A stretch of 64,000 nucleotides of DNA, taken from positions 45,085,050-45,149,049 of the forward strand of contig OY292277.1 of the NCBI GenBank assembly GCA_958496175.1, given 5' to 3'. Origin of the DNA: Sisyra terminalis. Its lineage: Eukaryota; Arthropoda; Insecta; Neuroptera; Sisyridae. The number at the start of each line of letters is the position of its first letter. The first letter of the stretch is position 1. Below the pieces are notes generated by a model, which made no database searches, was not told the DNA's origin, and was given only the letters and a program-made list of their open reading frames with translations. A program made the translations under genes and the position numbers. Shown here one piece after another: positions 14,334-58,800 of this stretch.

Positions 14334-14369
14334 TTACGTTTCGTTACGTATCGTAACTTCATCAGGCTT
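14334..14369 (-). ncRNA. Hammerhead-ribozyme-like core, family B copy 1
   Basis: Minus strand: CTGATGA, an extra A, stem II GTTACG-ATA-CGTAAC (perfect six-pair hairpin), GAAA, then CGTA. The expected stem I partner AGC before the core has no complement after the cleavage position here (run of A), so this copy is probably not active. Confidence 0.6.
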
Positions 14370-14573
14370 CTATAAAAAATTTAAATAATTACAAAATTTG
14401 TCAATCATACGTAAATTTCAAAACTATAATAATATAGATATTATAAAATAATTGTAATTAAATAATAATAACTAACACAAAATTTCAAAATTTGCCAAAT
14501 ATTTATTTAAATAAGAAGACAATTCAGGTTGTTTAATATCGGTTTTTTTATTTAATATTTTTATTATTTAATT

Positions 14574-14610
14574 AGCTACGTTTCGTTACGTATCGTAACT
14601 TCATCAGGCT
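14574..14610 (-). ncRNA. Hammerhead-ribozyme-like motif, family B copy 2, all core elements present
   Basis: Minus strand: stem I strand AGC, CTGATGA, extra A, stem II GTTACG-ATA-CGTAAC, GAAA, self-complementary ACGT followed by A (predicted cleavage after GUA), then GCT, which pairs with AGC to close stem I. Stem III would be only the ACGT palindrome, which fits a ribozyme acting as a dimer, as known for small hammerheads of Penelope-like elements. Activity is inferred from structure only. Confidence 0.68.
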
Positions 14611-14682
14611 TCTATAAAACATTAAAATATTTACAAAATATGTCAATCATACATAAATTTCATAACTATAATAATATACATA

Positions 14683-15694
14683 TTAGACTGATTCAAAAAA
14701 AAATGATTATTTTTTTTTCTTAATTATATCGAAAATATTGTTGGGAATGGCAAAAAAAATCTTGTGAAAGTTTAGGCTCTTAATATTAATATTAAGAGGT
14801 GCCGCATCGCAAATTTCGATTTTCCATTTAAATAACATGGGAACAATATTCTCTTGCACTTTGAAATTTTATAGCTCACGTTGGTGACAATATTTCGGAA
14901 TGTCCAAGGTATATTCTTGTAGAAAATTGAACGATCTACAAAAAAGGTCTCGAACAAGTTTTTGATATATTTATTCCTGCCAAAGTTATTCGAGGTCAAA
15001 GTTGAAAGAGAAATTTTAATATTTTTTCAATTTTTTGACGCTACCATCAAAATTTATGAGAAAATTTTATAGGACTTTTTTTGTAGAGCACTTTTTTTCC
15101 TATAACTTATCTCTATAAAAGTTTTTGATATTTTTCACAGGTCCTAAGTTATTTGCATTAAATTGAAAATTCCCTGAATTATTATATTTTTTAACATATT
15201 TTTTTTATTTCAATTAAATAACTTAGGACCTGTGAAAAATATCAAAAACTTTTATAGAGATAAGTTTTAGGAAAAAAAGTGCTCTACAAAAAATTTGCTA
15301 TAAAATTTTCTCATAAAATTGATGGTTGCGTCAAAAAATTTAAGAAATATTAAAATTTTTCTTTAGTTCAACTTTGACCTCGAATAACTTTTGAAGGAAT
15401 AAATACATCAAAAGCTTGTAAGAGACCTTTTTTGTAGATCGATCGTTCAATTTTCTACAAGAATATACCTCAGTCATTCCGAAATATTGTCACCAACGTG
15501 AGCTATAAAATTCCAAAGTGCAAGAGAATATTGTTCCCATGTTATTTAAATGGAAAATCGAAATTTGCGATGCGGCACCTCTTTATATTAATATTAAGAG
15601 CTTAAACTTTCACAGGATTTTTTTTTCTCATTCCCAACATTATTTTCGATATAATTAAGAAAAAAAAATCATCATTTTTTTTAAATCAGTCTAA
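14683..15694. mobile_element. Large palindromic foldback element with TA target duplication
   Basis: A 1012-bp near-perfect inverted repeat. Ends are TTAGACTGATTCAAAA and its complement AATCAGTCTAA, flanked by TA at 14681-14682 and 15695-15696. Each arm is about 480 bp and the centre is near 15165-15212. Matching arm phrases include TTTTGATATTTTTCACAGGTC / GACCTGTGAAAAATATCAAAA. TA duplication suggests mobilisation by a Tc1/mariner-type transposase. No coding capacity. It interrupts the family B hammerhead repeat. Confidence 0.85.
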
Positions 15695-15770
15695 TACGTA
15701 TAATATAAAAATAATATAAAACCGATCTTAAACAACCTGAATTATCTTCTTATTTAATAAAAGCTGAGAT

Positions 15771-16379
15771 CTGAATTGTATCATGTGTTTTATTTAATTG
15801 TATTCCGTTACATTATTACCACATAAATCCATACCGGAATTACTTACTTAGCTATAAGGATAAAAAAAATCGAATTGCAACTTTGTTGCTAATAGTTCAT
15901 TGTAATATTAAAACAATCAAGTCGTCAGTGGATAAAATTGGAAATGAATCATTTACCTGCAATAATAAATATTCAAATATGTACTACACATTGCATATTC
16001 CGCAATTAATGTACTTATATAAAAACCACTTAATGTAGTATGGAAACTTTTGATAATTCAATCGTTAATATTCAAGTAAAACCGATCTAAAATTGCAACA
16101 GCTACCCACTTATAATGCATTGAAGATGTAAAGAAAATTTTATTGAATTTTCTTTAATAAATAATAAGCCAAAGTATCATTAACGATACCTGTTATTCTA
16201 GACAATTTTCCCTTGGGAAATTAACGGATATCCTTTCATAATTTGTAAGCTGCAATATCTTTATTGTAAATTGTTATTAAAACATTTAACGAATTTGTTT
16301 TATTCTTATCAGGAAAAATAAAATGTTTTATCAAGTAGGTTTTTCTCTGTAACTTCTGGTTTTCTAGTAGAAATTTTAT
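15771..16379. other. Gene-free AT-rich region
   Basis: No gene or recognised repeat seen. Confidence 0.4.
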
Positions 16380-16383
16380 TTTA

Positions 16384-16783
16384 GGACTTATTTTCCGCCA
16401 GTAGGCTAATAAATTTTGCCGCTCCTACTAACGTCTAAAATTCGATACCCTATTTCGTAAACATATTAATTACATTTATTCCATCAATGGATTCGCAATT
16501 TGAGCTCTATCGTTGTTATTACATCAACTTTTCCTGTGACTAGAAACTTTTTTGGCCAAATTTGCCACCCTAGGTTTCAGCCTATTTTTGTTTCGATGAT
16601 ATATTGTTCAATTCTGACCTCTGAAATTCGACACCTTATTTCGTAATCATATTAATTACGTTTATTCTATGAATGGATTCGCAATTTGTGTTCTATTGTC
16701 GTTTTGACACCAATTTTTCCTGTGACTAGCAAATTTTTAGACCAAGCTTCAGTCTATTTAGCCTACTGGTAAATCCGCCACTG
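16384..16783. mobile_element. hAT-like remnant with internal 186-bp direct repeat
   Basis: The right end reads TTAGCCTACTGGTAAATCCGCCACTG, a hAT-type terminus (complement CAGTGGCGGAT). The left part carries CGCCAGTAGGCTAATAAATT in inverse orientation. Between them a segment starting TTCGATACCCTATTTCGTAA at 16441 recurs at 16627. No transposase seen. Confidence 0.5.
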
Positions 16784-16902
16784 ACTTATAATTCTGTTTA
16801 TCTTCGATGATATATATTTAAAGTCCAAGTAGTCCAATTCCTTGTTTTTAACGGATTTGAAGATTGTGATTCTTTTCTTATATGATCTCTCAATGTTTCT
16901 AA

Positions 16903-17072
16903 AGCAGGCCTTTCACGCTTCTTGCAGTACTGCTAGTCGGACTACTAGTTGGATCGCCTAAATGATCCGAATAGTCCGACTAGACTTCCAATTTCCAACA
17001 ACACCATTCATGGTCCGACTTTAGATCCAACTTCGAAAGTTGGACTGCAAGTCGGAACGTGAATGGCCTGCT
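16903..17072. mobile_element. PIF/Harbinger-like MITE, copy 1
   Basis: A 170-bp element with inverted ends AGCAGGCC.TTCACG / CGTGAATGGCCTGCT and 3-bp target duplication TAA (16900-16902 and 17073-17075). Internal text is rich in GTCCGACT/AGTCGGAC. A second copy in opposite orientation lies at 28458-28630. The TWA target duplication points to the PIF/Harbinger group. Confidence 0.85.
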
Positions 17073-17075
17073 TAA

Positions 17076-18200
17076 GAAGTTTTACCTTTTAAGTTCCTCT
17101 GCACTGCATTCTGGAAAGACTAATGTATCTCAGTACTTTTCCTAGTTCCAATTAGTCAAACCTGCTTCTGAGGTAAATGATTGGGTCTCTGAAAATTTCC
17201 CAAGTTATGCTTACGTGGTACTATATAGTACTATGGTGATTGTAATAAATGGATAATCTTCTTCCTCTTCACATTTCTAGTTCAGTAATCTTACTAATTT
17301 CACCTCGGAATTTGAGATACTACTAGCAAAAAACCCATAGGAAACGAGATATTGGAAAAAAATGTGCAAAAAAAAAACGATTTTTGAGACCTTGGACCTC
17401 GGATTTTAATAGATGCGTACTCCCTACCATATGCATGTTTTGGGGCAACTTTTAAGATGTCAAAATACAAATTTACAACTGGATATATCAAATTCCGTGA
17501 TACATAGCTAATGTTGATTAAGATGATTGGACTATTCTTGCATAAATTTCATTCGATATTTACCCCATTAGGATGAAGATATTTTATGGTGATTCCCAGG
17601 TTTGAGAATCTTATTGGGAATCTTTTGTTATCTTCTATTATTTTATGGGAACCTGGTAGAAGTATCCTGCTAAGTAATTGTTTCATGATTATCTTTACTG
17701 AACTATAAAACCTATTGCTTTGCATTTTGACTTATACCAGTTTCTGGACTCATGAATTACATATATGATCCTACCTTAACCATAAGATCAGCTTTCGCAT
17801 TTCCCCTAATGCCACTAACAGTAATAATTCTATAGTGCCAAGTTAATTTCAATTTACTAGTTATATAAGGTTGTCATGAGTTCTGAATCTTTTATTACAT
17901 AAACTTCAAACTAAAATAACTTTGGAAAATTTATCGTATTTAATCGAAATTTGCGGCAATAAATTCGAATAACGTGATTCAATATAATGCACCTGAATTT
18001 TCTCAATGATAATGCAACCTTTCTTGATATAAAAACTATTATTGGAGATCTTTCTGTAGGTTTTACGTTTCTCAATATTTTTACTGACAATGAAGGGTTC
18101 TTGAAAACTATTGTTATGTTGTTACGACTATTTATATTGACGGATTCGTTAAAATTTGTTTTCGGACCTAAAACTATAATACATTTCTTTTTAATACACA
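17076..18200. other. Gene-free AT-rich region
   Basis: Short open frames on both strands, none recognised. Confidence 0.4.
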
Positions 18201-18720
18201 CACGTTTATTATTATAATTATTTATTTATTTTAACGGTTGTAACTATTTCGTAATTGATACTTGTCGTAACTTTTTCGATACTGATTCGATGATGATCGA
18301 TTACCCTATTTACGAGTATATTCCCATTTCCAACTTCTGGAAGGTTCGAGACTGTTCCAGGCACTTCTCGTGGTTTGGAATATTAACTATCTCCTTTCTA
18401 CCTCACTTTAAATCTCACGAAGAATGTTCTAAAACGTCTTCGTCTCTCTTCAATCCAATTGTATATTCGAAAATTATAATACAAACACGTTTATTATTAT
18501 AATTATTTATTTATTTTAACGGTTGATGATCGATTACCCTATTTATATTCCCATTTACAGCTTCTGGAAGGTTCGAGACTGTTCCTGGCACTTCTCGTGG
18601 TTTCGAAAGTTAACTATCTCCTATCTACCCTACATTTAGATCTCAGGGATGTTCTAGAATGTCTTCGTTTCCCTTCAATCCAATTGTACATTCGAAAGTT
18701 TTAATAATTAGAACTTTCCA
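18201..18720. repeat. Tandem duplication of a ~285-bp unit
   Basis: CACGTTTATTATTATAATTATTTATTTATTTTAACGGTTG starts both units, at 18201 and 18486, followed in both by GATCGATTACCCTATTTA, CTTCTGGAAGGTTCGAGACTGTTC and CTTCAATCCAATTGTA. The second unit lacks about 50 bp. Class unknown. Confidence 0.75.
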
Positions 18721-19880
18721 ATGTTCCAAGACCGCAACACTATTCTAGGTTTTCGTTTTTTCGAGAAGCTTTCCAGGACATCCCAAACTTTGAACCTTTT
18801 GATTTCTTTTAGTACTATAGCTTGTTTCTAAAAATAACTAAAATAAATGGGTTTTATCTTCACTCTTTTTAGAGATATTCAGTAACTTCCGGAATTTCGA
18901 ATTGAAAACCTTAATGTTTTCATGTAAATGCTATTTTGTACGAATGTATTTTGCAAAGGATTCATCTCCCTCGTGTTAATTCAAGTCCTGTTTGGAAAGC
19001 ACACTGTTTAAAATATGCGTATCCTGTCGCATTTAGTGACGACCTTCAAACACCCCATATCCACCCTTAAAATAAAATACGTACGCATGGTCGTGGTACA
19101 GTTTTGATTCGTTCGGCCAAACCAACTCACCTACCCTTATCAGCCACCGTCCAACGCCCGGCTCCAACCACCCCATGCGTATTTGACTACATTATATAGC
19201 AACTCACTGTTTCAAGCCTCAGCACCTAATGCACCCCGCGCCTGTCTAACTCGGAAAATGTGCGTAATTTTCCCCCAGTCATGAATATGTGTGTGTGTGC
19301 TTTTTTTCGGACTCAGGCCAACAAACGTACATTTAATATCTCTTTCTTTCGCGTTTCGAATTTGATGGATGTGTGCCATATGACCGGGGTTGGAAATGAG
19401 GGGGTTGTTTTTGGAAATAAGGGATGATGAGGCAACGCGTAAAATATCCAACGACAGCCACAATAACGATAATGATGATGCTGATGCTGATAACAAACGA
19501 CAACCCTTCTTTGCATTGTATGGAGCGAATTTCGAGAATGTATTGTAAATTAAAGCCCTTGAGTCGGCTTGTTTCGCTTTATGTGTTTGGATTAATTTCA
19601 TATTACTGCTGAAATTTGTTGCTTGAATTATTGGCAAGAGTTTCGATGTGTGTTGAATTTAAATGAATTTGTTGGAGATTTGGGATTTCAATGACTATTA
19701 ATTTTCATATGCTTCTAAAAGCTTCTATCGCATTTTTAGATTATTTTTTTTTATTCGATTCTTTTAACTGGATTGTAGTTTAAGTATATAATAGTAATTT
19801 GATTCCAAATTTAATTTCCAAAAATAAAACTCCAGGTATATCAATGCAAAATTCCCCTATCAAAATCAGAAATATTTAAT
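18721..19880. other. Gene-free stretch with an unusually GC-rich block at about 19000-19470
   Basis: The block holds C-rich phrases (CAACGCCCGGCTCCAACCACCCCATGCG), a TATATAG near 19193, GT-repeats near 19290 and GA/GT-rich text. The 141-codon minus-strand frame at 19212-19637 has no recognisable domain. Base composition differs sharply from the AT-rich flanks, so a promoter, enhancer or CpG-poor unique island is possible, for example a distal 5' exon of a neighbouring gene. Not provable from sequence. Confidence 0.35.
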
Positions 19881-20371: not shown

Positions 20372-20873
20372 AAATGATAAAAACCGTCAATTGAATGAAA
20401 TTGAAATGACAGTTGAAACAAATGACAACAATCAGTTAACTCAAGTTTGAGACAATGATTATAATATTTGGATTTAACTCACACGTATATGTTTACATTC
20501 TTTGTTCTTTGTCCATACCGAAATATGGTACCTTTGCTTATTAATATACTGATTTTCACTACTAAATGACAAAAAGTTGAATAAAAAGCCGGTGAAAGGT
20601 TGCAATTTTTCTTGTCTATATTCTCATGTAAACAGGTTACTCTAATTCAATATAAATTTCCTGCAATTGCATATTTTTTTGGATAAACAACTTTCTTTTT
20701 AAAAGGGTTGTTTTACGACCCTTCGTAAGTAGTTGAAGGTATTAGATTCATAGCTACTTATGATCAGGACGATAAAAACATCCTAATAATGCATTTTTAA
20801 TTATGAAAAATCTTATAAAAAGAAGTAGAAATTCCATCTAAACAAAGATCTACATGTGTATACAATACATAGA

Positions 20874-21110
20874 ATATATTGCGGTCCAATTTATGTAGTA
20901 TAATTTAATATAATAATTTATAAAAACCATACCATAAACATAATTTTGAACAGAAGTTCAAACAAAAATATTCATGACGTATTGCCCAGATACGTATTTC
21001 GATTGCCAAGCGATCCTTCTCAGTGGTCATCAAGTAGTTTGGATCACTCCGTAACTGCTTTGTGATGATTCACAAAATAATCACAAAGTCAGCGAAAAAA
21101 TCTTATTTTT
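20874..21110 (-). repeat. Dispersed repeat with hammerhead-like core, family C copy 1
   Basis: Homologous to 35097-35336: shared phrases ATATATTG.GGTC, AGTTCAAACAAA, TACGTATTTCGATTGCCAAGC.ATC.TTC, CAGTGGTCATCAAGTAGT and GTCA.CGAAAAAATCT.ATTT. Confidence 0.75.
20986..21026 (-). ncRNA. Hammerhead-like core, family C copy 1 (catalytic box mutated)
   Basis: Minus strand: stem I CCA, then CTGAGAA in place of CTGATGA, stem II GATCGC-TTG-GCAATC (one G-T/C mismatch), GAAA, palindromic ATACGTAT, C, then TGG that would pair with CCA. Stem III and cleavage site are intact but the catalytic box is not, so it is probably inactive. Confidence 0.55.
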
Positions 21111-21119
21111 AAAGGTCTA

Positions 21120-22610: not shown

Positions 22611-22616
22611 TTTTGC

Positions 22617-25088: not shown

Positions 25089-26260
25089 GTAGTGTATATA
25101 TTACGAGTAAAGTTAGATTGACGAGTAAACCTAGGTTTACCCAGGTAAACTGTGGATTACTCAAGAAACATGGGCAAAGTAAGAAATATTACTAAAATTG
25201 GACATGTTTCGCACTTTACCCGGGTAAACTACGTTCCACCCATTTTCACTTAACGAGTAAAACTAGGTTTACCCAGGTAAACTGTGGATTACTCAAGAAA
25301 CATGGGCAAAGTAAAAAATATTACTAAAATTGGACATGTTTCGCACTTTACCCGGGTAAACTACGTTCCACCCATTTTCACTTAACGAGTAAAACTAGGT
25401 TTACCCAGGTAAACTGTGGATTACTCAAGAAACATGGGCAAAGTAAAAAATATTACTAAAATTGGACATGTTTCGCACTTTACCCGGGTAAACTAAGTTC
25501 CACCCATTTTCATTTGGTTAAAGTTGAGTTTAGGAACTATTAAAGTTATCAAATTATATCTCCGTTTGTGTGAAGGTTGCCAAAAGAAAATTAAATTTGT
25601 CAAGAAAGGACTTGTGGTTAAACCAATGGTGTTTTCGGAGATAAACAGATAACATTCATCATGGTATATCAAGACCACTTGACAAAATTTGTTCAAATAC
25701 CTGCATTGAAATCGAAATGGGCTAGGGAGGTTGCTAGGAACCTTATTGACATATTTTGCCTTTTTGGGGCTCCATCTATACTCCAATCAGACAACGACTG
25801 GAAATTTGCAAACCTTATCATTGAAAAGTTATGTTCCATGTGGAGTGTCCTCAAAATAGTACATGGCAAACCGCACCACATTCACTTATCTTGCTTGAAT
25901 AAATGAATTATAGCATCCTTAACTTTTATAGAACAGTTTTTATGTTTTCACCCATATTTTGGTAGATTGACTTTTCAGAAATAAACTTTTCAAACATTTC
26001 TGACCTTGTTCTTTTTGTTCCACCCAACTTTAACCAAGTGAAAATGGGTGGAACGTGGTTTATCCAGGTAAAGGAATATTTCGTACTTAACCCATGTTTC
26101 TTGAGTAATCCGTAGTTTACCCGGGTAAACCTAGGTTTGCTCGTCAATCTAACTTTATCCGTAACATTTATACAACATTCGTAGTTCAAGTAAAAGCGAT
26201 GATTCTTTGTGTCAGTGTTAGGCTGTGAATATTTCACGGGAAGTTACTAGTTAAATTATT
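25089..26260. mobile_element. Inverted-repeat element with 132-bp tandem subterminal repeats and a captured integrase piece
   Basis: Left arm: three tandem 132-bp units (CTAGGTTTACCCAGGTAAACTG at 25131, 25263 and 25395) ending near 25517. Right arm: one inverted diverged unit at about 26020-26175 (CCCGGGTAAACCTAGGTTTGCTCGTCAATCTAACTTTA). Both arms end outward in ACGAGTAAAGTTAGATTGACGAG-type text. The core holds a degenerate integrase fragment. A terminal piece of the same family lies at 19876-19934. The palindromic ACCCGGGT may be a transposase-binding motif. Confidence 0.7.
25565..25900 (+). pseudogene. Retroelement-type integrase core fragment (KRBA2/gypsy-integrase-like), broken
   Basis: Translation shows GLVVKPMVFSEIN, then after a stop and a deletion MVYQDHLTKFVQI, LIDIFCLFGAPSILQSDN and LKIVHGKPHH. 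These match the rve integrase core around the first and second catalytic Asp of the KRAB-A-domain-containing-2-like family, a domesticated/gypsy-type integrase common in arthropod genomes. The stretch that normally joins the two halves is missing and the reading frame is lost after HGKPHH. It is a dead fragment inside the inverted-repeat element. Confidence 0.75.
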
Positions 26261-28630: not shown

Positions 28631-28653
28631 TTAGTTACAGGCGTAGATTTGTG

Positions 28654-32784: not shown

Positions 32785-35096
32785 AATCATTTCCTTGACA
32801 CCCCCTAAAATAAAGGAAGGACGTCTGCCAGCCACGTGACACACACCCTTACGACACAGAATTCAAACATTAATCTAATTATAAATTATGATCATAATCA
32901 TTAGGACATGCAATATGTACAAACTCCGCATTCACAAATCTCTATAGAATTTTCGGCTGAACACAACCCTTAAGCCCCGTTTCCGCTTAAAGCCTACCCC
33001 AATGGAAATAGTCCAGGTATTGACTGGCTAGAATAAACGGAATTGACGTAAAATAATAGTGGTATAAGTACTAATGTAAATGTTAATTTTAACATCCCTT
33101 AAATGAATAGGGACACAAAACAGGAATAGAAACTCGAAAGGGAAGTACCGGTTTGGGGATGTTGGTATGACACTAAAGCCCAGGTATATTTGTTATTTAG
33201 TTTTCGAAAATTTAAAAAAAAAAGCTTTAATATAATTTGTAATGAGGCCAACAGGAAATGTCTTGTGTATTTGGAAGGGTAAAGTTGTAAATGTATGTAC
33301 TATAGAGGGATGAAACTTTTCCATTATTATTCAATCCAATTATAGAGCATTGACTGGAGGGAACAAAGAGCCTTTTTTAGATTAGTTTATGTTGTAATTT
33401 AATTTTTTCACTCGTCAACTAGGAAATTCAATTGGAAATCCTTAGATTTAATAAGCGGGAAAATTACATTTTCTTATTTTAATTAAAACGAAACACATAT
33501 TAAATCTAATAGTAATATCAACGATTTATAGTGGGATGAAGCCATTGCATTGTCTTCGAAAGGGATGGGGGTCTTATGTTGGTGGTTTGTTAGGAATATT
33601 TGAAGAAATTTCAAAACTGATTTTCGTGTAAGGGATGCCATATAGATGAATATTTTAGCAGGCGCGTAATTTACGCGCCGATTTGCCTACAAGATAATAT
33701 TCCGTTGAAAGAAAATGGGCTGGAAGCGAAGGGATGAAAGGATTTTAAGGGAATAAATGGAAAGGAAGTGAAGCGAACAGATTACACAATTGTGCTTTAT
33801 TCAAATATTGATTATTCAATTTTTGGTTAAATTCAATGTCACTTATCAATACTTGGTAGTAGTAAAATTTTGCGAAAATTTATTTACTCGAAACAAAGAT
33901 AAATCTTCCTAGAGGGCTGAATTCTTACTACATCGTTGCATTATATTTAATATTTATTTTCCAAAATATTAACGATGTGATTATATGCTTCGACATAGTC
34001 CAGACAACAACGCGAAAATTACCTATGGCTTTTTATTTTTATCCCGAAAACGTTAGTCTGGCGTCCAGATGTAAATATAAACACATAGTAAGTCGCTTAC
34101 TTGATAATTAAACGCAAGTCTCCTCAATTAAAAACGATTCTGGTTTTTTTCTTTGAAGAGCTTTTCGAAATAAATCAATCGAAAAATAGAAGGAAAATAG
34201 ATTGAAACTAAACAGACATCTCTTTCCAATCCAACACTGCGATTGTAAACAAAAGCCTAATAAAAATTTGTTACCGGAAAATGAGCTTTTATGATAGTTT
34301 CCAATTCAATAATCAATTTATTAAGATCAATAATCACTGACCAAAAGTTTATTTGATTTATAAAAGATTTTGCGTTTATTTTAGACTAGGAAAGATCTAT
34401 AAAATCAAACTTGTTTTGATAATCGAATAGATCCTTATGCAAAAAAATTGCATAAACTACTTATGAAATTTATTCTAGATGAAAATATTTTCTACTTTTT
34501 AACTTTGGTCTTCATGAAAAAAATAAAATTTCCCGAAATTCTAGAAAATTTTCTTGTCTCTTCAAGTCTTAATATCTTCTAAAAGTGGTTTTAATGCAGC
34601 GATATAAATTTTTTTCATACCGACAATAAAATTCATTATTACTGTAATTTATTGTTGACATCTGCCTTATTTGATCGGATATTGATCTTTGTTAAACGTC
34701 TTTAAATTGCATACGTACTCGTGTTCATCCCTTATGGGATGTTTCGAAAGTGAATTGCATTCAATTGAATCTTTGATCATTTCTCAAATTTGGGTTTGTC
34801 AAGTATCATCATATTGCAATAATGGGGACCAAACTTCCCCCTTATTTTTACGTCTTATTCTCGTTATCGCCTTAATTCACTTTGCGGAGTGTTGACATCT
34901 TATTCACGTTTCACTATTGCCTGTTGTGCTTCCCCTATTCAAAAGTGGATGTTTTCGAAATATGAATAGTAATTGCATTTTCTGTTCAAAATGATATTCA
35001 ATTTCAACGTGTTTCAGGCCACCCTATAATACCTTAAACCGAAAATACATTCATGTTTTTTTTTTCAAATATTTTCTTGTTTTTAAGATATAAAAA
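32785..35096. other. Gene-free region with some less AT-rich text
   Basis: No gene recognised. Contains an E-box CACGTG near 32835 and the GC-rich palindrome at 33661-33679. Confidence 0.4.
33661..33679. repeat. GC-rich perfect palindrome
   Basis: GGCGCGTAA, one T, then TTACGCGCC: nine-base perfect arms in an AT-rich background. Could bind a dimeric regulator; no further evidence. Confidence 0.6.
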
Positions 35097-35336
35097 ATAT
35101 ATTGTGGTCTTATTTATGTAAAATAATTTACAAATATAAACATAAATTTAAACAAAAGTTCAAACAAATAAATTACTTACGTATTTCGATTGCCAAGCAA
35201 TCTTCATCAGTGGTCATCAAGTAGTATTGAATTGCTCAGTAACTGATATGTGATGAGTTACCAGACAGTCACTACACAGTTGTATATACTGTATAAAAAG
35301 TATAACTGTTCAAAGTCAACGAAAAAATCTAATTTG
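35097..35336 (-). repeat. Dispersed repeat with hammerhead-like core, family C copy 2
   Basis: Homologous and collinear with 20874-21110. It has an extra segment (CAGACAGTCACTACACAGTTG) near 35262. Confidence 0.75.
35175..35213 (-). ncRNA. Hammerhead-like motif, family C copy 2 (catalytic box intact)
   Basis: Minus strand: CCA, CTGATGA, extra A, stem II GATTGC-TTG-GCAATC (perfect six pairs), GAAA, then TACGTA. Copy 1 has ATACGTATC-TGG here, whereas this copy reads ATACGTAAGT, so the cleavage-side strand is damaged while the catalytic box is kept. The two copies complement each other in showing the ancestral motif. Confidence 0.6.
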
Positions 35337-35538
35337 AAATATTTTCTTGTTTCTTATTGTTGGAAATGTCTCCTAATCAGCTTGCATATGAAGCATATAT
35401 TGGGAACTGCGTTATCTCCACTCTCTCTTAACTGAAAGCGGTGCTTACAGGATAAAAGTAGTCTAAACTAAGACACTAAAAGGTGCGGACGTTTATTTTA
35501 ATTAACAGTTTACTTTACAAAATATATGTGGTTTTATT

Positions 35539-35786
35539 TTAACGAATCCCTAACTCCACCATAACTCTAACACTTATATGAAATATTAACTTTTTCCCGC
35601 GATTTCGTTCGTGTCGAATAGTTATTTTCATTGATCTCTCCGAATTTGAACTAATAGTAACAGTAAAATTTAAAAGAAATGTTTTTCCAGTGCCTTCCGG
35701 GCATTCAAAAAGAACAAGCTTTCTTCGCCGTTTACAATCTTTTGTAAAAGAATCAATCATCAAATCAAGAATCAATCTTTTGTAAA
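35539..35786 (-). pseudogene. Helitron-type PIF1 helicase fragment
   Basis: Minus-strand translation contains RKLVLFECPEGTGKTFLLN, a Walker A motif in the wording typical of the Helitron/PIF1-like helicase (usually GPGGTGKTFL). Only about 80 codons remain, without the rest of the SF1 helicase motifs. The foldback element 35787-36119 abuts it on the upstream side and may have cut it off. Confidence 0.65.
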
Positions 35787-35850
35787 TTATTTAATTTTTA
35801 GCAGGAATATGGACTTAAAGGATGTAAATCTATATACTAATAATTCATTC

Positions 35851-35888
35851 AGCGACGTTTCGGTCCTTTATTTGACCTTCATCAGGCT
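35851..35888 (-). ncRNA. Hammerhead-ribozyme-like motif, family A left arm, all core elements present
   Basis: Minus strand: stem I AGC, CTGATGA, extra A, stem II GGTC-AAATAAAG-GACC, GAAA, palindromic ACGT, C (predicted cleavage after GUC), then GCT pairing with AGC. Stem II loop AAATAAA resembles the loop of known schistosome hammerheads. Predicted to work, if at all, as a dimer because stem III is only ACGT. Confidence 0.7.
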
Positions 35889-36017
35889 TCTAAAAAATCA
35901 TATTTAATCATTCTTAATTGTTATTATACTTTATATTAAGGTAAATAAACAATTTAACAATTAAGAATGTCCTGAAAAGTTCTGTAAACATGTGTTTGTA
36001 TTAATATGATTTTTAGA

Positions 36018-36055
36018 AGCCTGATGAAGGTCAAATAAAGGACCGAAACGGCGCT
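36018..36055 (+). ncRNA. Hammerhead-like motif, family A right arm, cleavage site mutated
   Basis: Plus strand: AGC, CTGATGA, A, GGTC-AAATAAAG-GACC, GAAA, then CGGC where the left arm has CGTC, then GCT. The T to G change destroys the NUH cleavage triplet, so this arm is probably inactive. Confidence 0.65.
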
Positions 36056-36469
36056 GAATTAATTATTAGTATATGGATTTACATCCTTTAAGTCCACTTT
36101 CCTACTAAAAATGAAATAATATTATGTAAAGTATGCAACAAATTTATCTTTTGAATAACATTACCAAAGACTAATATTTGTTCTGGGCTCAAAAGTAGAA
36201 CTACCCCCGTTAAATTTCCTTACCATGTAAATATAGTAAGTATGGACAAATTTGTTTGGCTTTCCATACGAATTTTCATCCCCTATATCACACTCATTTA
36301 GGTCAAAATTTTCAAAAATGCATGAACAAATGTTTATTTATTTCTTATCAAATGTCCAAATACAAAGTTTCATTGTTTTATCTACAAAAAATAATTACAA
36401 ACTCCCATATACACTTTTATACTTTATTTCAACGTGACAAAAAGTAGACCATGTTCTTCTACAAGGTTT

Positions 36470-38700: not shown

Positions 38701-40050
38701 GGTGTACCGGAAAAGAATATCGTTTTAACCCAACAGTCTTTCAATTGCCATTTATCTGCTTATAAGTTATTTCAAAGTGGTACTAAAGACATTTTATGAT
38801 TAGAGTAATTTATCAACTTAGTAAAAATTACAAAATATTTTTTATTCTGAAATCTATATTGAAATGGTAAGACCAAAAACCTGAAAGAATATAAATTTGG
38901 TGTTGTATACTCATCGAGTTTCACAAGATAGCAACGCAAAGTTGTTACTAAAAACATTTTCAATGTTTATCTAAGTGCATTAGATGTTTATTAACGCCAA
39001 ATGAGTTTTTATAACTTCAAATTCGATAATTTTCATTTCTCCAACTGATACTTACGAAATATGACAAAAAATTTAACCAATAAAAAGTTAAAGGGGAAAA
39101 TAGTATCAAATGTATCATTGTATGCCAGAAAGTCAAAAAGCTGACAAATAATCTTAATCGATCGGTCAAATTCCCAAAAGTGTCCAAAACTGTTAACAGA
39201 TACAATTCTATGCTGCAACACGATAATGGAAGACTCCTCTGCAGAAGAAAAGCCTAAGAAAAAACTAATTAATTAAGGGAGAGGTTATATTGCCGTGCCC
39301 TAATAACTATCCAAAGTTATTCTATCGGATTTCTATTTACTTCAATCGTTAATGTTTGCAAAAAAAGATAAGACATATTTCTTCTAGTTTCACAGGATAG
39401 TGACGCAAAGTTGTTACTAAAAACATTTTCAATGTTTACCTAGATGTTCATTAATGTCATATGAGCTTTTTTAAGTTCAAATTCGATAATTTTCATTTCT
39501 CCATCTAGTACCAACGAAATATGACAAAAAATTTAACCAATAAAAAGTTACGGGGGAAATGGTGCCAAATGTATGCCAGAAAGTCAACTTGCTGTTAAAA
39601 AATCCCAATCAATTTTAGTTGATCGGCCAAATACCCAAAAGTGTCCAAAAATTGTTAACAGATAAAATTCTATCCTGCAAAATGGTAATTCAAGACTCCT
39701 CTGCAGAAGAAAAGCCCTGGAAAAAACTAATTACTTAAGGGGGAGCTGATATTGCAGTACCCCAATAATTATCCAAAGTTGTTCCATCGGATTTCTATTT
39801 ATTTCAATCGTTACCACATTTACTAAGTGGTAAAAAAAATTAAAGCTTAAGTGATGTTCAAAATGTATTTTTTTGATATTGTCCTTAGTAATCAATTGAT
39901 TTTTACTAATATGGCATTAAAAATTTGCACATTTGATGTCAAAACGTTGATACTATCGAGACTGATTATATCATTGATTTAAAATCAACAGTAACTAAAT
40001 TTTGTGTTTTAATTGTATATTGAAAAAACGACAATACTTTCCGGACCCCC
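38701..40050 (+). mobile_element. Decayed mariner-like element, copy 2, with internal tandem duplication
   Basis: Ends GGTGTACCGGAAAAGAATATCG and CGACAATACTTTCCGGACCCCC, with TA at 38699-38700 and 40051-40052. Inside, about 470 bp is present twice (from about 38917 and about 39387): GTTTCACA.GATAG.GACGCAAAGTTGTTACTAAAAACATTTTCAATGTTTA to AAGACTCCTCTGCAGAAGAAAAGCC. Translation around 39213-39330 gives LQHDNGRLL and after a stop LREVILPCPNNYPKLFYRISIYFNR, matching the mariner wording HDNAR..., EVLPHPPYSPDLAPSDYHLF. The second unit reads QNGN in place of QHDN. Confidence 0.75.
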
Positions 40051-41404: not shown

Positions 41405-41655
41405 CAGAGGTGGCCAACCCGCGGACCGCATAAGGCACATCTTGACAATGTTTTCCACCCGCGAAATGCATCAGACTTTTATAAAATTTATACATTTTAT
41501 AATAACCAAAGTGGTGACAACTACTATATTAAAAAATGTTTACAGTGTATCTAAATTTAGTATGGAAAATTTGAGATATAACTTCAAAAGTGGCCCACGG
41601 AGTTATAATGCATCTCCGTAGTGGCCCGCAATATCATTTGGGTTGGCCACCCCTG
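41405..41655. mobile_element. hAT-type MITE
   Basis: 251 bp with ends CAGAGGTGGCCAACCC and GGGTTGGCCACCCCTG. Flanks ATTTAAAT and ATTTCAAG agree at 6 of 8 positions, as expected for an aged 8-bp duplication. No coding capacity. Confidence 0.75.
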
Positions 41656-42354
41656 ATTTCAAGTATGCTGATTTCTCGATATCTTAAAAAAGAACATAGG
41701 TTTTTAATTAAAAGGTCTAATTTATATCCCATTAATGGTTGTCCGTTTATTTATTTTAATCAGCCTTTTTCTGAATGCTACTTTTATTATTAATAATTAA
41801 ACGTAAATAGGCAACCTTTTCTTCTGAAAAAAAAATAGTTGAACTTGATTACCTACAAAGTTCCTATCAAATCAGTAAAGCTGTCTTTAAATTGGAACCA
41901 TAAGTGAAATCAGAATAAAATATTGGTACAACTATTTAGATTAGACTTGTTTGTGACCTTTATACTGTTTTGGCGAAATACTAAGAACTACCTGAAAACA
42001 AAATATTATCAAAATCAATAAACCTGTTCTTGAATCGTACGAAAGAATGCAGGTAGGCCGAAATTTACATTCGAATTATTAAGCTTTGATCTATAATGAT
42101 CAATATTGTGGTCGAAACCGGCTGAGTTCCAAGGTGGTGTGAAATTGCAAACGATTTTCTACCTGGTCTCAACGGGTGGTATGAAATAGCATTATAAATG
42201 CTTGAAGGCCAAAATGTGTGAAAAATGTAGATTGAAAGGTGCCACTAATGGATTCGGAAACAGGTGTTAATGTATTTATAATTGACAACAAATAATAAGT
42301 ACCTGAAACTGGTTCCAAATTCTTGAACGACATATTTATATCTGCCATTCTCTC
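41602..42354 (+). repeat. Dispersed repeat, copy 2 (about 750 bp)
   Basis: Collinear with 11726-12437, overlapping the right end of the hAT MITE and continuing through AAAGCTGTCTTTAAATTGGAACCATAAGTGAAATCAG (present in both) to CTGCCATTCTCTCG. Confidence 0.8.
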
Positions 42355-44241
42355 GTTATTATTTTGGACTTTAAGCTCTTACTATGTTATTTTATATCAC
42401 CAGATGAAAGTACGATAATTTGCATTCCATACTAGCTAACGAGTAAACTGGTTTTGCACTTAACGTGTGGAATCCATACTGACAAAAGCCATAACAAAAA
42501 TGAAAAGTATTTCAATTTTCATTTTATCCCTTACTAGCTGATACCCAGAACTTCGCCTGCGTGACGTCTATGATGGTATTATTTTCTTTTGAAATTTGCT
42601 TATCTAAGAAAACTAAATCTATTACACATAAAAGATGAAATATAACACTCCGAAAATATAAATTCCGAACAACATTTAATAAAAGAAGGCATGTTTACTT
42701 GCATATGACGTCATCGAAGTTACAACCAATCACAAATCGTTCTCGTTCCCGTTAAAATTTCAAAAAATTTCTATTTTTTCATTTATAAAAACTATAAATA
42801 ATTTAATGTGTAATATGCTTTTTCGCGTTATTTTAATAGAATTACAACAATTTGTACTATGTTTTCAATGTTGTCAAATACCCTATTGAAAAAAATTTAA
42901 ACATCATGATGTTCTCGTTGACGCATATTATTATGTAAAGAATGTCCAGTAAAATGTACATTAAAAATCACAACGTTGTTTGTTTTTATTTTACTAACTT
43001 TTGGAGCAAAATTGATTTAAATTTTAAGTCGGGAATTTTTTATGAAAATAGCTCGTTTTCGTCTGGAAAATCAAGGAAATTGAATTAACTGGACACATTT
43101 CAATCTCATACGCAACAAATTTTCCACAATTCTCGTTTTAAATATTTTTCTAAAGCCTAGACTCGATAATGATCATAGAAAGCACAAAAAACGATAAAAA
43201 ACAACCATTGAAAAATGAGAAAATTTGATACTTTTTCCATGTTTTTGTGAATTTGACGAACAATTATGTTTTGTTCAAGAAAGAAATTCAAGCAATTCTT
43301 TCAATTGTAAAAAGATTTATGAATCATTCCGTAATTGTATTAGAAAATATCTATCAGAAGCCAAACTAAAAGAAATAATACGTCTAAATACAAAAGTAAA
43401 CGAAAATCTTCTCACTTAAAAGTTAATGCGAACAAATCTTTCAACGAAAAAAAAAAACATTTTTAAAAAAGTCCTAATGACTTCAACTTTAATCTGTAAA
43501 ACAAACATTTTACTCGAAAAATCGTTTATTTTAAATTCTTTTCACTTTTCGGTAGAACAAACGACAAAATGCCTTACGGCTACAAAAACCATAGTGCTCT
43601 AATTGACATGACGTCATTAAATTTCCACTATTAGAAAAGTAAGGTACAATTAAATATCTTATAATAATTCTTCTATAAGTCCTTTGAAATCAATTGTAAG
43701 ATTAAAGCTTTTAAACGTTTATTTTTTAAGATTTTTGATTTAATGTGTTTGGATGGATTTTTAGTAAACTGAAGATAAATGTGCAGAACGGAATGATAAA
43801 TGAAATGCTATTACGTTATACTAATTGAGCTAACAACCGATCAATGGCAAATATCCAAATTGAAAACTATTGTCGGAAATGTGAATGAGTTATGGATATC
43901 AATCCATCAGTCTCCACAATTTGGAAATACTTGTTTTTTTCCACTAAAAAAATTCTGATATGAACGCCAAATGATTTTTTCTGCAGATTTCTTTTAGTCT
44001 TAGAAGTACTTTGGAGCCCCAGCGCTATTCCTAATCCTTATTGGTAAAATTAGCTTCTAAAATAAGTTTCTAAGGATAGGCAACCTCTATTACTATGTGT
44101 AACACTAATTGCCTACACAACATTTTATTATATACTTGTCTCAAAGCATACCCTTAAATGAAAAATATTATTAAGTAAAGAATGTGGACATATTATTTAT
44201 TTTCTAATAGATTATTTTAATTTTTTTCCTCTTTTTTCCAG
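42355..44241. other. Region upstream of the Mcr-like gene
   Basis: No coding exon recognised. The Mcr exon starting at 44242 follows a polypyrimidine tract and AG, so a 5' noncoding exon and promoter must lie somewhere upstream. The 64-codon frame at 43225-43419 is unrecognised. Confidence 0.4.
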
Positions 44242-52913: not shown

Positions 52914-55078
52914 TTACTTTGAATTTTTGTCCTCAATTTCCTCGATATAATCGTTATCGTCCAATTCTATATTTTCGTCATTTTCCACTTCCTCCATCAA
53001 ATGTTCCACGTAGGCACTATTTTCCGTTTTTGGCTTTTTCAGTTCGCGAATTGCCTTCATTTTATCAATGTACCGTTTCCGCAAAAAGCTGGCTAGCGCT
53101 TCCCTTTGACCGGCAATCGTTCCGTTCGGCAATGTAGAGTAATTGGGATCACTACGCCAAGAATTGTCTGGACTAGGATTGGACTCCTTGCGGTGAAGTG
53201 CTTGAGCTTTTTTCACATTCCTTTTTATCTGCGAGAAAAAAAGGTATGAAAGTCAAAACATTAGGCCATAAGAACTATTAGGAATAAGGAAATATACGTG
53301 AATTATAAATCAAATCCAGATCATGTATAATCTGAATTTTTCATAACACTACATACTTTTTCCATTATAAAATAATGATCCAACCCGAATATATCATGGC
53401 GCATTTCAGGTAATGGTTCGTCTGTTTGTTCTAACTCTTCAGATTCCTCGATTTTTTTAATTTGATCTTTAACAGCTTCGGGCAAAGTTGTGTTTAATGT
53501 AAATTCCGATTTCAAGCGATGACCAAGTTCTACAGGGATATGATCCTCCCCAAAGTCAGCTTTAGCCAAACGCACATCTACTTCGGCTATTTTTGCATAT
53601 TCCTTATCTAGAATTTCAGATATCAATATCATAAATCGGAAACTTAAATTTATTGCGGGTAAGTTTAACCTTTGACAAAGTTAATTTTTGGAACTACTCC
53701 CATCACTCGTAATTGGGATAATTCATGCCGTAATGCACCAGCATTTTTCAACAATGTTTTATCAATATTTTCATCAATTTCAGTTCCTTTAGCCAACCAA
53801 AATACGTTAACTTCACTGAAGTTTGGAGTTATTTGAACCTAAGAACATAAGCAATTTAAAATGATATGGTTTAAAATATTAAACAAATCAAGATTCCAAT
53901 GCCGCCAAGCCTGCATTATTGGAAAATAATTTTTATAACCGATGCTATTTAAGCTATATACATTAATATATATTCACTTTATACTACGTTCTTGGAACCC
54001 AAGAGTTATCAATTATGCCTGGAAAACGAGGAAAGCTGATTAGATCAAGGAGAGTTCAATGAATTTCGCTAAAATTACGATGAAAATTTTCTCAAAAAGA
54101 AAGAAGTTATATGAAAGAAAGAAAGAAGTTATATGTTTCAAGGATTAAATAATTCTATGATTATCTAAATATCATCTAAGTTTCAAAAGAATCTTTGAGA
54201 AAATCTTATTTGAACATCCTTATAGGCAGTAAGTAATCATACAAACTAGGTGGTGACCCTCTGCTCACTTCGCTCGTTAAGTCAAATATTTGAACGTAAA
54301 ATTATATTATTTAAATTAAGAAGATTATACTTCTAATATTTTATTTTTAATTATATCTCATTTTCTTTCAGTTGAATTCTGTTGTCATAGATCTTAAATT
54401 CATCGTACAACAATTGATTCTTACACATTATGCTAATAAAAGTAATTGTTTTAAAGCCTGTATGCCACTGTTATGAAAACAGGAGCATGTTGCTCTTCGT
54501 ATCAACCACGTAATGGTTGGAGATGAAAAAAACCTTTTTTTAAATCATAAAAAACAATACAACCCCGTGACTTAAATGCCCATACACCACGTATTCGAGC
54601 TTCTTAAAGTTCTGTAAGCCTGGCGGCTCTGGATAGTAGTCTTATTATCAGTATTTTATATTTACTCTTGAAACTTCGATTCCTTTGCCTAGAAATTCAT
54701 GAGACATACTCCCTGTTGCCATTATATCCGTAATATATCTCATAAACAACTTATTAAGAACAGTAATTCGCTTCGCATTTATCGATTTACCTCCTTCGAG
54801 TGCACCTTTTGTTAGAGCACTTGCCGTTGGAAGAACCGGCGGTGCTTGATTTTCGGATGCCAAATACCATTTTCTATATAATTCAAAATAAAAATAAAAT
54901 TCTTTTCTTTAAAATATATATGGGGTTCAATCAAAAACTACCTTTTCTTCGAGGAGATACCAAGTATTTTATTTAGGAGTTTTCCCTGACGATTTGAATA
55001 TTTGTTGTTGTTAACATTACTAGTTGAAATTAATCGCACTAAAGTACAACTGGAACATTTTAGTAAACTTAAATTCAT
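52914..55078 (-). CDS. Mitochondrial ribosome-binding factor A (RBFA-like)
   Basis: Five exons on the minus strand: 55078-54942, 54873-54666, 53838-53670, 53607-53357, 53228-52914. Phases agree and give 359 aa ending TAA. The N-terminus (MNLSLLKCSSCTLVRLIST) is basic/hydroxylated without acids, as in mitochondrial targeting peptides. Residues about 85-190 form the RbfA KH-like fold: ITVLNKLFMRYITDIM, then GIEVSRVQITPNFSEVNVFW, then GALRHELSQLRVMGVVPKINF. The C-terminal part is acidic (DENIELDDNDYIEEIED). Family role: RBFA binds the small-subunit 12S rRNA and helps its maturation in mitochondria. Exons 1 and 3 were placed by splice signals. The donor of exon 3 (GTTAAA) is unusual. Divergent from Rbf. 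Confidence 0.88.
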
Positions 55079-55474
55079 TCTTTAGCAATAAATATTTTGC
55101 GTTTATTTTAAAAATAACTTGAGTTATTAAAGGATCTATTTGAGGTTACAATAACTAATTTTTTCATAAATTGATTATATTTTAAGAAAAGTGGTTTTTC
55201 ACAATTTCTAGTATTAAAACTACGATTAAAGGATTAATAGTTCATTTTGTACAGGATTTATTAAAATTTAAATAAAATAATTCTGCCGGGAATTATTTTA
55301 AAATAGATTCATTCTTTGCATATATATCTTTTCTTTTTTAATGAATAGATTATTCGTATGATAGATAAAGTAAGACGATTAAATGTACGTAAAAATCGAA
55401 TGCATGCGAGGTGTTTGTAGTTGCAAGTTTCGACGCTGGTTAGCGGTAGTGATTGATAATTACAAGTGATAAAA

Positions 55475-55483
55475 GTTGGCGCG
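55475..55483. promoter_or_regulatory. E2F-like site 1
   Basis: GTTGGCGCG, preceded by AAAA, resembles the E2F consensus TTTSSCGC. It lies 361 bp before the Rbf start codon. Confidence 0.45.
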
Positions 55484-55660
55484 ATAAAATTATTACGTAA
55501 AAATAATTGTTAATTAATGCAATTATTGGCATAACATTATTTTGAAAAATAAATTCAAATAATTTGAAGATTCTTTTTTTATCGGACGACCAACCGTTAG
55601 GCAGTGATAAGAAATAGCGTTATTAAATGTGGCATTTCTATTGATTGGCGTTGTATTACT

Positions 55661-55671
55661 TTTGGCGCCAA
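55661..55671. promoter_or_regulatory. E2F-like site 2 (near-palindromic)
   Basis: TTTGGCGCCAA matches the high-affinity palindromic E2F site TTTGGCGCCAAA except for the last base. It lies about 173 bp before the Rbf start codon. Vertebrate RB1 and p107 promoters are known E2F targets. Confidence 0.6.
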
Positions 55672-55843
55672 TTCATCTTCACAAATAGGCACACCCATAA
55701 AAATTGCCGCATTTTAATAGTTCTGTAGGAGTTTACGTTTGGTGGCAATTGAGTGAGGTTGTTATCAGTAGTTTTTATGTTATTTGTGTTGGAAAAAACA
55801 TTTTCTACAAAGGAAAGATCGTTTTTAGGAAACCTGAGTAAAC

Positions 55844-58800
55844 ATGGAGTCATCAGTCACCCCTGTGGTCGACAAAAATGATCTGAAAAGTAAATTTGAT
55901 GAAATCATTCGAGCGTTGAATTTGGACGCAGAATTGGGAAAAGATTCTTGGACCACTTATCTACGAATAAAAGAGAACTATGTTTTAGATGTAAGTAATT
56001 TATTTTCTGTTATAACTTAAGATATTCCTTTAATGACAAATTACTAATTTAGGGTGATCAAATTCTATGGCTGGGCTGTGCTTTATATATAGCTTTACAA
56101 AAAGTTACGACTCCACCAGTGGGAAATTCAAATAGTTATGCTCATGGAAATGGAGTCAACTTAAATCGACTCTTAAATCTTTGTAATTTAAGGTATATAA
56201 ACTATTTTTGTTATTATATTATATACAACACACAAAATTAAATTAATGATTTTTCTTAGCTTGGACATCTTTTTTAATAAATGTCAATTATGGATGGATA
56301 TGTTGAATATGCCTGTGGAATATCGAAAATCCATGGAACAATTGGAACGTAATTTTCAAGTTTCAATTGTGATTTTCAAGAAATATCAAAGAATATTCGG
56401 CGACCTGTTCGTAAAACCCACTACAAATCAACCAAACTATACGACTTCACGTAAAAAGAAGTATGCATTTCCTTTTTATCTATACAAAATTTTTTAAAAT
56501 TTATTATAAATAAAAATCATTAAGTTATTTAAAATCAGAGTCCTCGAAAGACCAATTGAATAAATCAGGTTATTTAATGAGTATAATACGCTCACAATAA
56601 ATGGTTATTTTTAGCTCTTCAAACGTAGGTGCTGAATGAAGGGTTTTGTTTTATAATTTTTTAAACATTCAAAGAAAACCACTGTATGAAAATTAGCTAC
56701 AGTACCTACTTACAAGAGAGGGATGTACTGTCCCTTCCCGTTGGGAGCTACTAATCTAAAGTTACATCTCGAAAAATAAATTTTTAAAGTTTTATGGATC
56801 AATTTACTTTATTGTTTCTCAATTTCGCTATCGTTTCGTCACGTACCGTGACTTCTTTAGCCATGTAATACATAAACATAGAAAAGACAATACAATATAC
56901 AATTTGTACCTTGAAATAATAAATATAAAATTAACACAAATGCCAATGCAAGTATAATTACAACAAAAATTCAATTTATCAGACTGACTAATGTCTATTT
57001 ATTTATTTGAATTGTTGTTGCAATTATAATAGAATTGATATTTGTGTTAATTTTTATTTCTTATTTCAAGGTACAAATTGTATTATCTTTTATATGTTTA
57101 TGTATTAGATGTCTGAGAAAGTCACGATACGTGACGAAACGTACCACGGTAAAAACAGACGAAACGGTAAAAACAGAAATATAGAATTTGGACGAATTAT
57201 TGTTTCAACAGATTGTATCTCAAAAATATTTTTCTTAGAACTGATTAAAATCTGTAATCAAGAAGTTTTATTCTTATATCTTTTATAAATAAGGCCGAGA
57301 AAGGCGAATTTTGTCTGGAAAGCTAGAAAAATTTAGGAAATTTGTGTTGAGGAAAAAAACGGGACACTGCATTACAGCATGCTGTTACATGTGCGATATG
57401 TTCGTTCGGTTTTTCCGGTTTAGGGAAAAACGACTGAGAAATTTAATGTCTTTAGCTTAAGAAACTTTATTGATTTTTCATTTAGGAAAATTATTTAATG
57501 GATTCGGCTTATTTTTTAGAACCCAACCGTGCAATAGTAATCAACTCTTCGAGTTTAGTTGGACATTGTTCGTTTTGTTAAAAAACAATGCACCCGATTT
57601 GGTTACGTCATATCATTACCTTTTGGCCTGCTGCAGTTTCATTTATATCAACGTTGTAAAATCCAATCGTCTTGATTTGTTAAATCCAACGTTTCCAGGT
57701 TTGTAAATAAATAAAATAAAATGCTTTTATCTAACCATTATTCTGAATTAACTTTTTAAGGTTTCCCTAAAGACTCGTCAGATGTTGATGACAATACTCA
57801 TTCCATTTTGAACATAATAATCGAAAAGTATGATGGAAGTTCGCTTGATATCAAGGATGTTTATGAGTACTTTTGGAAGAAACAAATTTCTTCGCTGATG
57901 CTAAATAAAAAAGCAGTTTTGCGAGGCGATTCTAAAACGTTAACAGGCATTTTAGATCCGGTGATATTTGATCAAAATTTCAAGTCAATCAGTGATCATT
58001 ATGGAGAAAAAATTTTAAAGAACGGAAAGTTCGATGAGCGAATATTTTTGGGTACATATTTTTCCTTATTTGTTTCCAACGTTCTTTCCTTTGTCAAATA
58101 CAGTTCCTTCTCTATCGATCACTCATTTTAAAATATTATTTTACATGATTGCTTTTTTAGGTAATGATTATATTGTACAAATTGCATCTCTTATTCGTCC
58201 CAAAGATAATGTTAATAATACTCCAACTGCACCAATTACAAATTTGGCTGTAAGTATTTATCTTCCATATAATGTCAATAAAAACCAGTGATATTGGCAT
58301 ATCATTTCAAAAGTTGTGAAAAATAATGCCTTAACTTTAACAACCAGTAAAATACTACTTTTAATATATTAAATATCTTTACTATGTTTTCACTACTTTT
58401 GAAATGACATATAAAAACATTACTGGTTCTCCATCTAAAACTTCTAAACATTTTTTTTTTCTGTAGCATTTAACTATTGGTACACCTTTAAGTAATCTGA
58501 GCTACGTCAACAATTATCCTAGATGTGCGCCTTTGTCGGTGTTAACGACATCAGCTAATAATGTCGCCAATTTATACACTTTAGTCGGAGGACTTTCACC
58601 TGAACCATCTGAAGTCCTCAAGCAATTTGTCAGCAAAAGCTGTTCTAAATCTTCAAATGAAAAATGTTTGGAAACTGTTCAATCTGTTTACGATAGTTTA
58701 GCTCAATCGTTTTTTGCAAATTCAAATAGTGCAAAAATAAAATTGAATCCTGCCCAAAAATTGTTTATACAGAAGTTATTTTACAAATTCTTGGAATCAA

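Follow-up and report, generated by a model that had tools for sequence, protein, structure and literature searches.

Hammerhead-bearing repeats of Sisyra terminalis as probable inverted insertions of Penelope-like elements with a single tail per pair

A stretch of 64,000 nt from the genome of the neuropteran Sisyra terminalis (contig OY292277.1, positions 45,085,050 to 45,149,049; hereafter the window) contains short repeats in which CTGATGA and GAAA boxes enclose a paired stem, and the question raised by this locus is what kind of element deposits such hammerhead-like units and by which route it is copied. An earlier note on the window had taken them for minimal type I hammerheads of Penelope-like elements (PLEs), an attribution that is supported by their sequence, by inverted terminal repeats with target duplications and a single-arm tail, and by a putative endonuclease fragment linked to one of them; the inverted-repeat layout of the loci at 14.3-15.8, 35.8-36.1 and 56.8-57.1 kb was missing from that note. 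Since inverted pairs, tails, duplications and the putative endonuclease link are published hallmarks of PLEs, the identification holds, and the repeats are probably pseudo-long terminal repeat (pLTR) insertions of endonuclease-type PLEs, copied via two fixed start sites on the sense RNA. That PLEs carry hammerheads and have inverted pLTRs, tails and duplications is already in the literature; for the near-strict rule of one tail per pair, the agreement of paired arms in splice state and a stem I that splicing completes no earlier report was found in the open-licence literature.

Copies of the motif are abundant in the host genome (376.6 Mb, 11 contigs), where the core pattern CTGATGAAGN{3,20}CGAAACG matched 4345 times (2136 + 2209) and its reversed control five times (2 + 3). 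Two families are followed here, T, to which the 14.3-15.8 kb locus belongs, and G, represented at 35.8-36.1 kb; a stricter pattern for G gave 241 + 278 matches in the same genome vs 0 when reversed. The loci studied, 91 in total, comprise 71 that hold the first 100 of the 4345 core matches without omission (contig C1, 0.43-9.98 Mb) and 20 G-family loci chosen partly for visible pairs (11 of the 20 regions), and their arms were located by BLAST with family arms. Because all loci were picked for the exact motif, solitary repeats lacking it are uncounted. Among the first 100 core matches 29 neighbours lay less than 2 kb apart, and 27 of these were divergent, two direct and none convergent. When arms were placed by BLAST, the 71 loci yielded 60 divergent (head-to-head) pairs, together with two convergent, two plus-plus and one minus-minus neighbours, while the 91 loci yielded 82 divergent pairs, with one arm or none at 13 loci. 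Since neighbouring copies are mostly inverted and not tandem, a double hammerhead within a single transcript is not what the genome usually offers. Three loci (L017, L033 and L067) carry hammerhead-like cores with different stem II sequences and flanks; the genome therefore contains additional families.

The two arms of a pair are distinguished by an extra tail of about 30 nt, which is present on one arm and seldom on both. By BLAST exactly one tail was found in 52 of the 55 readable pairs of the 71-locus set, the other three having two, and in 67 of 75 pairs over the 91 loci, where seven further pairs were unreadable; it stood on the left in 34 pairs and on the right in 33. Reading the ends by pattern gave one plain and one tailed end in 23 of 27 pairs, and the remaining four consisted of a tail with an unread end (L030), two tails (L064), no readable end (L068) and a pair without a tail by pattern in which a degraded tail is visible (L069). 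Because unpaired motif copies were tailed as often as plain (20 and 20, with 6 unread), random pairing would place one tail in about half of the pairs, and relative to this expectation the 67 of 75 has a P of 5e-13 if copies are treated as independent. Target duplications of at least 8 bp were detected in 16 of 25 pairs vs 7 of 107 mismatched controls, two of the 27 pairs, whose ends were not placed, having been dropped. This one-tail rule is best explained if every insertion involves two starts of copying, each fixed site being used once. A side observation concerns the two-tailed pair of L064, whose arm homology continues into the flanking DNA beyond each tail, as would be seen after a larger inverted duplication.

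Close counterparts are known. Excerpts of PMC3846280 describe inverted pLTRs of rotifer Penelope elements with palindromes at head-to-head junctions, a 31-bp tail that is optional on one inverted pLTR, and duplications of 8-10 bp. The lizard PLE protein, according to parts of PMC11167929, cuts and extends both strands; copying begins at internal sites that bracket the tail, the hammerhead, which required that protein, lies just 5' of those sites, and ribozyme mutants still inserted. The link to an endonuclease comes from locus L079, where the frame at 785-1105 on the minus strand is similar to a Polistes protein (E 9e-15, 52% over 79%), among whose 27 listed relatives six carry PF01541 and two carry PF26215. 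This frame is a putative 5'-truncated, C-terminal endonuclease fragment that stands upstream of the pLTR in the same sense, as in PLEs. The GIY-YIG signature is absent from the fragment, which received no Pfam call, and a PF01541 profile search of the host genome gave one place, outside the loci studied.

The sense of the template can be approached through an intron of GT-AG type, which appears to end 4 nt ahead of the ribozyme core. Introns retained in PLEs are said to have been reported in the early 2000s. With junctions marked by a slash, the spliced form of the T family reads ...GTGAATCAAG/AAGC-CTGATGA and the unspliced form ...GTGAATCAAG/GTATTTTATT...TTTTTTATAG/AAGC-CTGATGA; the G family has the identical junction with a different, shorter intron, and spliced-like as well as unspliced-like copies occur in both families. 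The 5' junction was traceable in 12 of 46 unspliced arms (six T introns of 204-209 nt, one T intron of 244 nt and five G introns of 61-62 nt), and 11 of the 12 introns start with GT, that of L022 starting with AT. Altogether 162 arms were classified as spliced (112), unspliced (46) or unscored (4). Both arms were spliced in 46 of the 82 pairs and both unspliced in 15; 21 pairs, with an arm truncated or unread, were unscored, and no pair was mixed, where independent templates would predict about 23 mixed among the 61. Because spliced and unspliced copies coexist and the GT-AG removal is precise in two families, spliced sense RNA is indicated as a template, and we infer from the genomic copies that the template is sense RNA, often spliced. 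The discussion in PMC3846280, as far as excerpted, favoured an antisense RNA template; the splice-state data lend support to the case against that option.

The following course of insertion can be envisaged. The element RNA would be made in sense and often spliced, and reverse transcription, primed by the cut target DNA, would begin immediately 3' of the ribozyme, at two fixed sites separated by about 30 nt. Each of these start sites would serve once per insertion, the template being a single RNA or RNAs of the same source, and the two cDNAs, ending near the same point, would then be joined into a palindrome. With the ribozyme located 5' of the two start sites, any arm extending across it would come from uncut RNA, an origin that would be in line with the lizard PLE, and cutting by the ribozyme would shorten the template. 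The arms of T pairs have a similarity of 0.890 vs 0.789 after re-pairing (largest of 2000 re-pairings: 0.833). Arm lengths vary widely, the arms of a pair being near-symmetric, and the centre loops of 62 junctions measured at most 20 nt in 29, 21-60 nt in 14 and more in 19.

Several observations weigh against two initiations on a single template. The partner was the nearest neighbour for just 18 of 44 T arms, and in the G family (5 pairs) the similarity of 0.901 vs 0.862 re-paired gives no one-template support, because it is no higher than the best re-pairing (0.901). L040 joins arms of two subfamilies within a single 12-bp duplication, therefore two templates are possible at times. Concordance of splice state could also be produced by gene conversion between arms, or by one source locus instead of one molecule. 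Among the 75 pairs, five had two tails and three had none, and the choice of start site by the lizard PLE in vitro was equal on both strands in the data excerpted from PMC11167929.

The palindromes could alternatively arise by snap-back, a variant of the self-priming proposed in the excerpted part of PMC3846280, in which the cDNA begun at the tail site reaches the 5' end of the RNA, folds back and copies itself, to stop at the inner start site. The short centre loops in 29 of the 62 junctions and the near-symmetric arms would be expected from such a route, which would also draw both arms from one template, as the splice-state agreement asks. We nevertheless consider it rather unlikely: copy-back should run through the tail, yet two tails were seen in just 5 of 75 pairs, in the lizard PLE (PMC11167929, in part) copying is known to start at the inner end, and L040 requires two templates.

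Two further kinds of element could be thought to resemble these repeats. The two ribozyme units at 14.3-14.7 kb, which form a 242-bp direct repeat, recall animal retrozymes, small non-autonomous circles with hammerheads that are inserted as direct tandems, whose type I hammerheads stand, in the portion of PMC7761336 concerned, in direct repeats of 150-300 bp. This tandem is itself, however, located within one arm of an inverted insertion, direct neighbours make up only 3 of 65 (two plus-plus, one minus-minus) vs 60 divergent in the 71 loci, and the tail and endonuclease link indicate PLEs, so a retrozyme origin is highly improbable. Still slighter is the chance that the loci are inverted-repeat DNA transposons similar to miniature inverted-repeat transposable elements which contain the motif by chance: these would account for inverted arms and short target duplications, but not for the unequal ends (one tail) of 67 of 75 pairs or the widely variable arm lengths, and an RNA stage is implied by the precise excision of GT-AG introns seen in two families.

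The intron has a possible bearing on the ribozyme as well. Stem I is lengthened in spliced copies by pairing between the exon strand and the sequence 3' of the cut. Constrained folds, with stem I pairing given as z vs dinucleotide-shuffled 5' strands (35 arms skipped), gave for the T family a mean of -1.25 in spliced arms (n=46) and +0.38 in unspliced arms (n=14; p 5e-7), and for the G family -1.68 (n=16) and -0.88 (n=15; p 9e-3); as the copies are related, these p values are overstated and the independent evidence amounts to two families. In five T-family examples the free fold was the hammerhead fold. We tentatively suggest, as an idea on the doubtful side, a ribozyme completed by splicing: the intron would lie inside stem I, its removal would join the pairing exon strand and favour the active form, and a single such RNA, copied twice from two fixed sites, would give the palindrome with exactly one tail. 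In the G family the free fold was better than the hammerhead fold in 4 of 4 examples (L026 with a mis-set cleavage site), a result that counts against the hammerhead. Unspliced RNA keeps the exon strand, which might pair with the intron looped out.

As for the hammerheads of the window, CTGATGA by itself is unremarkable there (8 matches vs 5.4 expected). A descriptor composed of CTGANGA, a stem II of at least 4 bp, GAA, A15.1...U16.1-H and a stem I of at least 2 bp found four sites, two of them with a short stem III (copies 14607- and 35885-; the sign gives the strand), while 100 shuffled windows had a mean of 0.24 sites (maximum 2), or 0.05 (maximum 1) with the short stem III. The features of a type I hammerhead, namely CUGANGA and GAA boxes flanking a paired stem II, a UH site and stem I, are thereby found, and the predicted cuts fall between 14577 and 14576 and between 35854 and 35853, respectively. 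Judged by its sequence, the pLTR contains a minimal hammerhead of type I whose stem III is self-complementary, with one extra A ahead of stem II in the copies counted. Self-complementary stem III sequences occur in every group (ACGU; ACGUGU with G-U pairs; AUACGUAU), consistent with a dimeric ribozyme of the kind reported for PLEs.

That any of these hammerheads cuts is something we infer. The free fold of copy 14607- agrees with the hammerhead. Counting against the assignment, the minimum-energy free fold of the intact copy 35885- alone is not a hammerhead, part of its core being paired otherwise, and the Rfam covariance search returned no hammerhead match in the window, at E up to 1 over its whole length and up to E 10 in 14300-14680 and 35140-36130. 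Other Rfam matches were rejected, as they lay far under the family cut-offs and were mostly plant microRNA models fitting a long hairpin. One of these hairpins, that of the inverted insertion at 35835-36072, reached 65 bits to the plant microRNA family MIR2630 (cut-off 144); it illustrates that palindromes of this sort can pass for microRNA precursors. Free folds of dimers mostly pair long A/T stretches and are uninformative on double hammerheads. Of two pattern scans run on viral contigs, one gave no match and the other four, none of which has a paired stem II.

The features of the window are collected in Table 1. The pattern of CTGATGA, one A, a paired stem II and GAAA, which the earlier note had described as recurrent, was recovered at 14607-, 14365-, 35885-, 36021+ and 35210-, of which 14607- and 35885- alone are intact; the single A ahead of stem II is present in all seven aligned copies, two of them with broken cores. 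Copy 35210-, which is without stem I, has ATACGTAA rather than ATACGTAT, and the latter sits in a sister at 20.84-21.11 kb that had gone unlisted, where the TGG of ATACGTAT-C-TGG would pair with CCA as stem I. The four lineages proposed for the window reduce to at most three unrelated groups, because the repeats at 57 kb and 14.6 kb are related to each other (76% over 71 nt, E 3e-7). As in the earlier note, no autonomous element was seen in the window, among 19 frames of at least 110 aa, 10 of which were Pfam-scanned.

Table 1. Hammerhead-bearing repeats and associated features in the window (positions in window numbering)
Feature	Position	Strand	Remarks
T-family Penelope-type inverted insertion	14294..15788		ends approximate; left arm minus, right arm plus
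Second hammerhead unit, stem I lost (copy 14365-)	14335..14369	-	27-nt deletion right after the cleavage base (alignment)
Intact minimal type I hammerhead, predicted (copy 14607-)	14575..14611	-	AAGC-CTGATGA-A-GTTACG/CGTAAC-GAA-ACGT-A-GC; descriptor scan
Sister of the 35.2-kb repeat	20843..21108	-	GAA-ATACGTAT-C-TGG present, CTGATGA box broken
Degenerate hammerhead-like repeat, other family (copy 35210-)	35066..35350	-	CTGATGA-A-GATTGC/GCAATC-GAAATACGTAA; related to 20843-21108
G-family Penelope-type inverted insertion	35783..36145		arms 111 nt, 94%; ribozyme copies 35885- and 36021+
Intact minimal type I hammerhead, predicted (copy 35885-)	35852..35889	-	AAGC-CTGATGA-A-GGTC/GACC-GAA-ACGT-C-GC; descriptor scan
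Likely unspliced 76-nt intron	35941..36016	+	AAG/GTAAAT...TTTTTAG/AAGC; compared with spliced and unspliced genomic copies
Partner hammerhead, right arm (copy 36021+)	36017..36054	+	U16.1 changed to G; sequence
Old inverted repeat, two degenerate hammerhead-like units	56832..57141		stem II GTCACG/CGTGAC

In all three inverted repeats of the window the ribozyme strands face outward. The inner arms of the T-family insertion (508 bp, 91% identity) differ in content: two ribozyme units, spaced by 242 bp, lie in the left arm; the right arm is tailed and has lost its own ribozyme, its tailed end (15700-15784) matching the T family. The insertion is flanked on both sides by TTTATTTAAT (14284-14293 and 15789-15798), which is weak as a target duplication because it is made of A/T only. 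In the G-family insertion the tail is on the right arm (family tail match 36052-36148), an 8-bp ATCTTTTG read from the sequence flanks it at 35775-35782 and 36146-36153, and the likely intron ends 4 nt ahead of the ribozyme core. The 57-kb repeat, with arms of 94 nt at 79% and 48 nt at 85%, has both cores broken, and by alignment its arms stop at the ACGT preceding the cleavage site.

Some observations touch the cleavage site itself. The 14.34-kb deletion and the arm ends at 57 kb fall at the same predicted-cleavage edge, and four of 19 truncated arms, all four from the G family (L049, L070, L085 and L097), start 2-5 nt past the predicted cut. Such arms could be copies of cut RNA, a suggestion which is post hoc and based on a small count and which we do not claim.

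The surroundings have a G+C content of about 31%, and the Pfam scan of the window frames placed exons of SNAPC3, of an alpha-2-macroglobulin protein with an LDL-receptor repeat and of retinoblastoma within the window. Other repeats were also noted: three near-identical 132-bp tandem units containing CCCAGGTAAAC and CCCGGGTAAAC at 25121-25512, with a weaker, inverted relative at 26.0-26.2 kb; a 462-bp unit in tandem (about 1.9 copies, 81%) at 38911-39813, with inverted relatives at 29.2-29.9 kb; and a dispersed repeat of about 750 bp at 11726-12438 and 41601-42356, the two copies being 81% alike.

According to the excerpted part of PMC3846280, it was left open whether sense or antisense RNA is copied and how head-to-head palindromes originate, and the host genome offers thousands of motif copies on which template sense and palindrome origin in PLEs can be tested. 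The splice-state agreement and the one tail per pair narrow the possible mechanisms to those in which copying starts twice, from two fixed sites, on a single RNA or source. If it is true that splicing assembles the ribozyme, RNA maturation would be linked to a ribozyme cutting its own template. A covariance model built from the Sisyra copies would be useful, because the Rfam models miss them.

Minimal dimeric hammerheads of PLEs were reportedly described by Lunse in 2017 and by Cervera and de la Pena in 2014. As compared via reviews only, these are similarly type I, PLE-linked and equipped with a reduced, self-complementary stem III, whereas the Sisyra copies are mostly inverted neighbours and have an extra A before stem II. 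The plus-strand hammerhead of chrysanthemum chlorotic mottle viroid (CChMVd) shares this feature, since in the part of PMC3705267 concerned an extra A (A10) is placed between A9 and G10.1 with a moderately lower trans-cleaving rate; it is a viroid ribozyme and no homology is implied. Animal retrozymes, in what excerpts of PMC7229834 and PMC7761336 describe, are alike in having type I hammerheads within small repeats of animal genomes and differ as direct tandems without tail or inverted arms. The closest likeness is to the Penelope/Poseidon-type pLTRs, with which, on the basis of the excerpted PMC3846280 and PMC11167929, the Sisyra copies share the head-to-head arrangement, the junction palindromes, the tail of about 30 nt on one arm, duplications of 8-12 bp, a hammerhead 5' of the start sites and an upstream putative endonuclease fragment. 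Unlike these, the Sisyra copies, among which no full-length element was seen, have exactly one tail in nearly all readable pairs, their arms agree in splice state, and their motif is present in thousands of copies.

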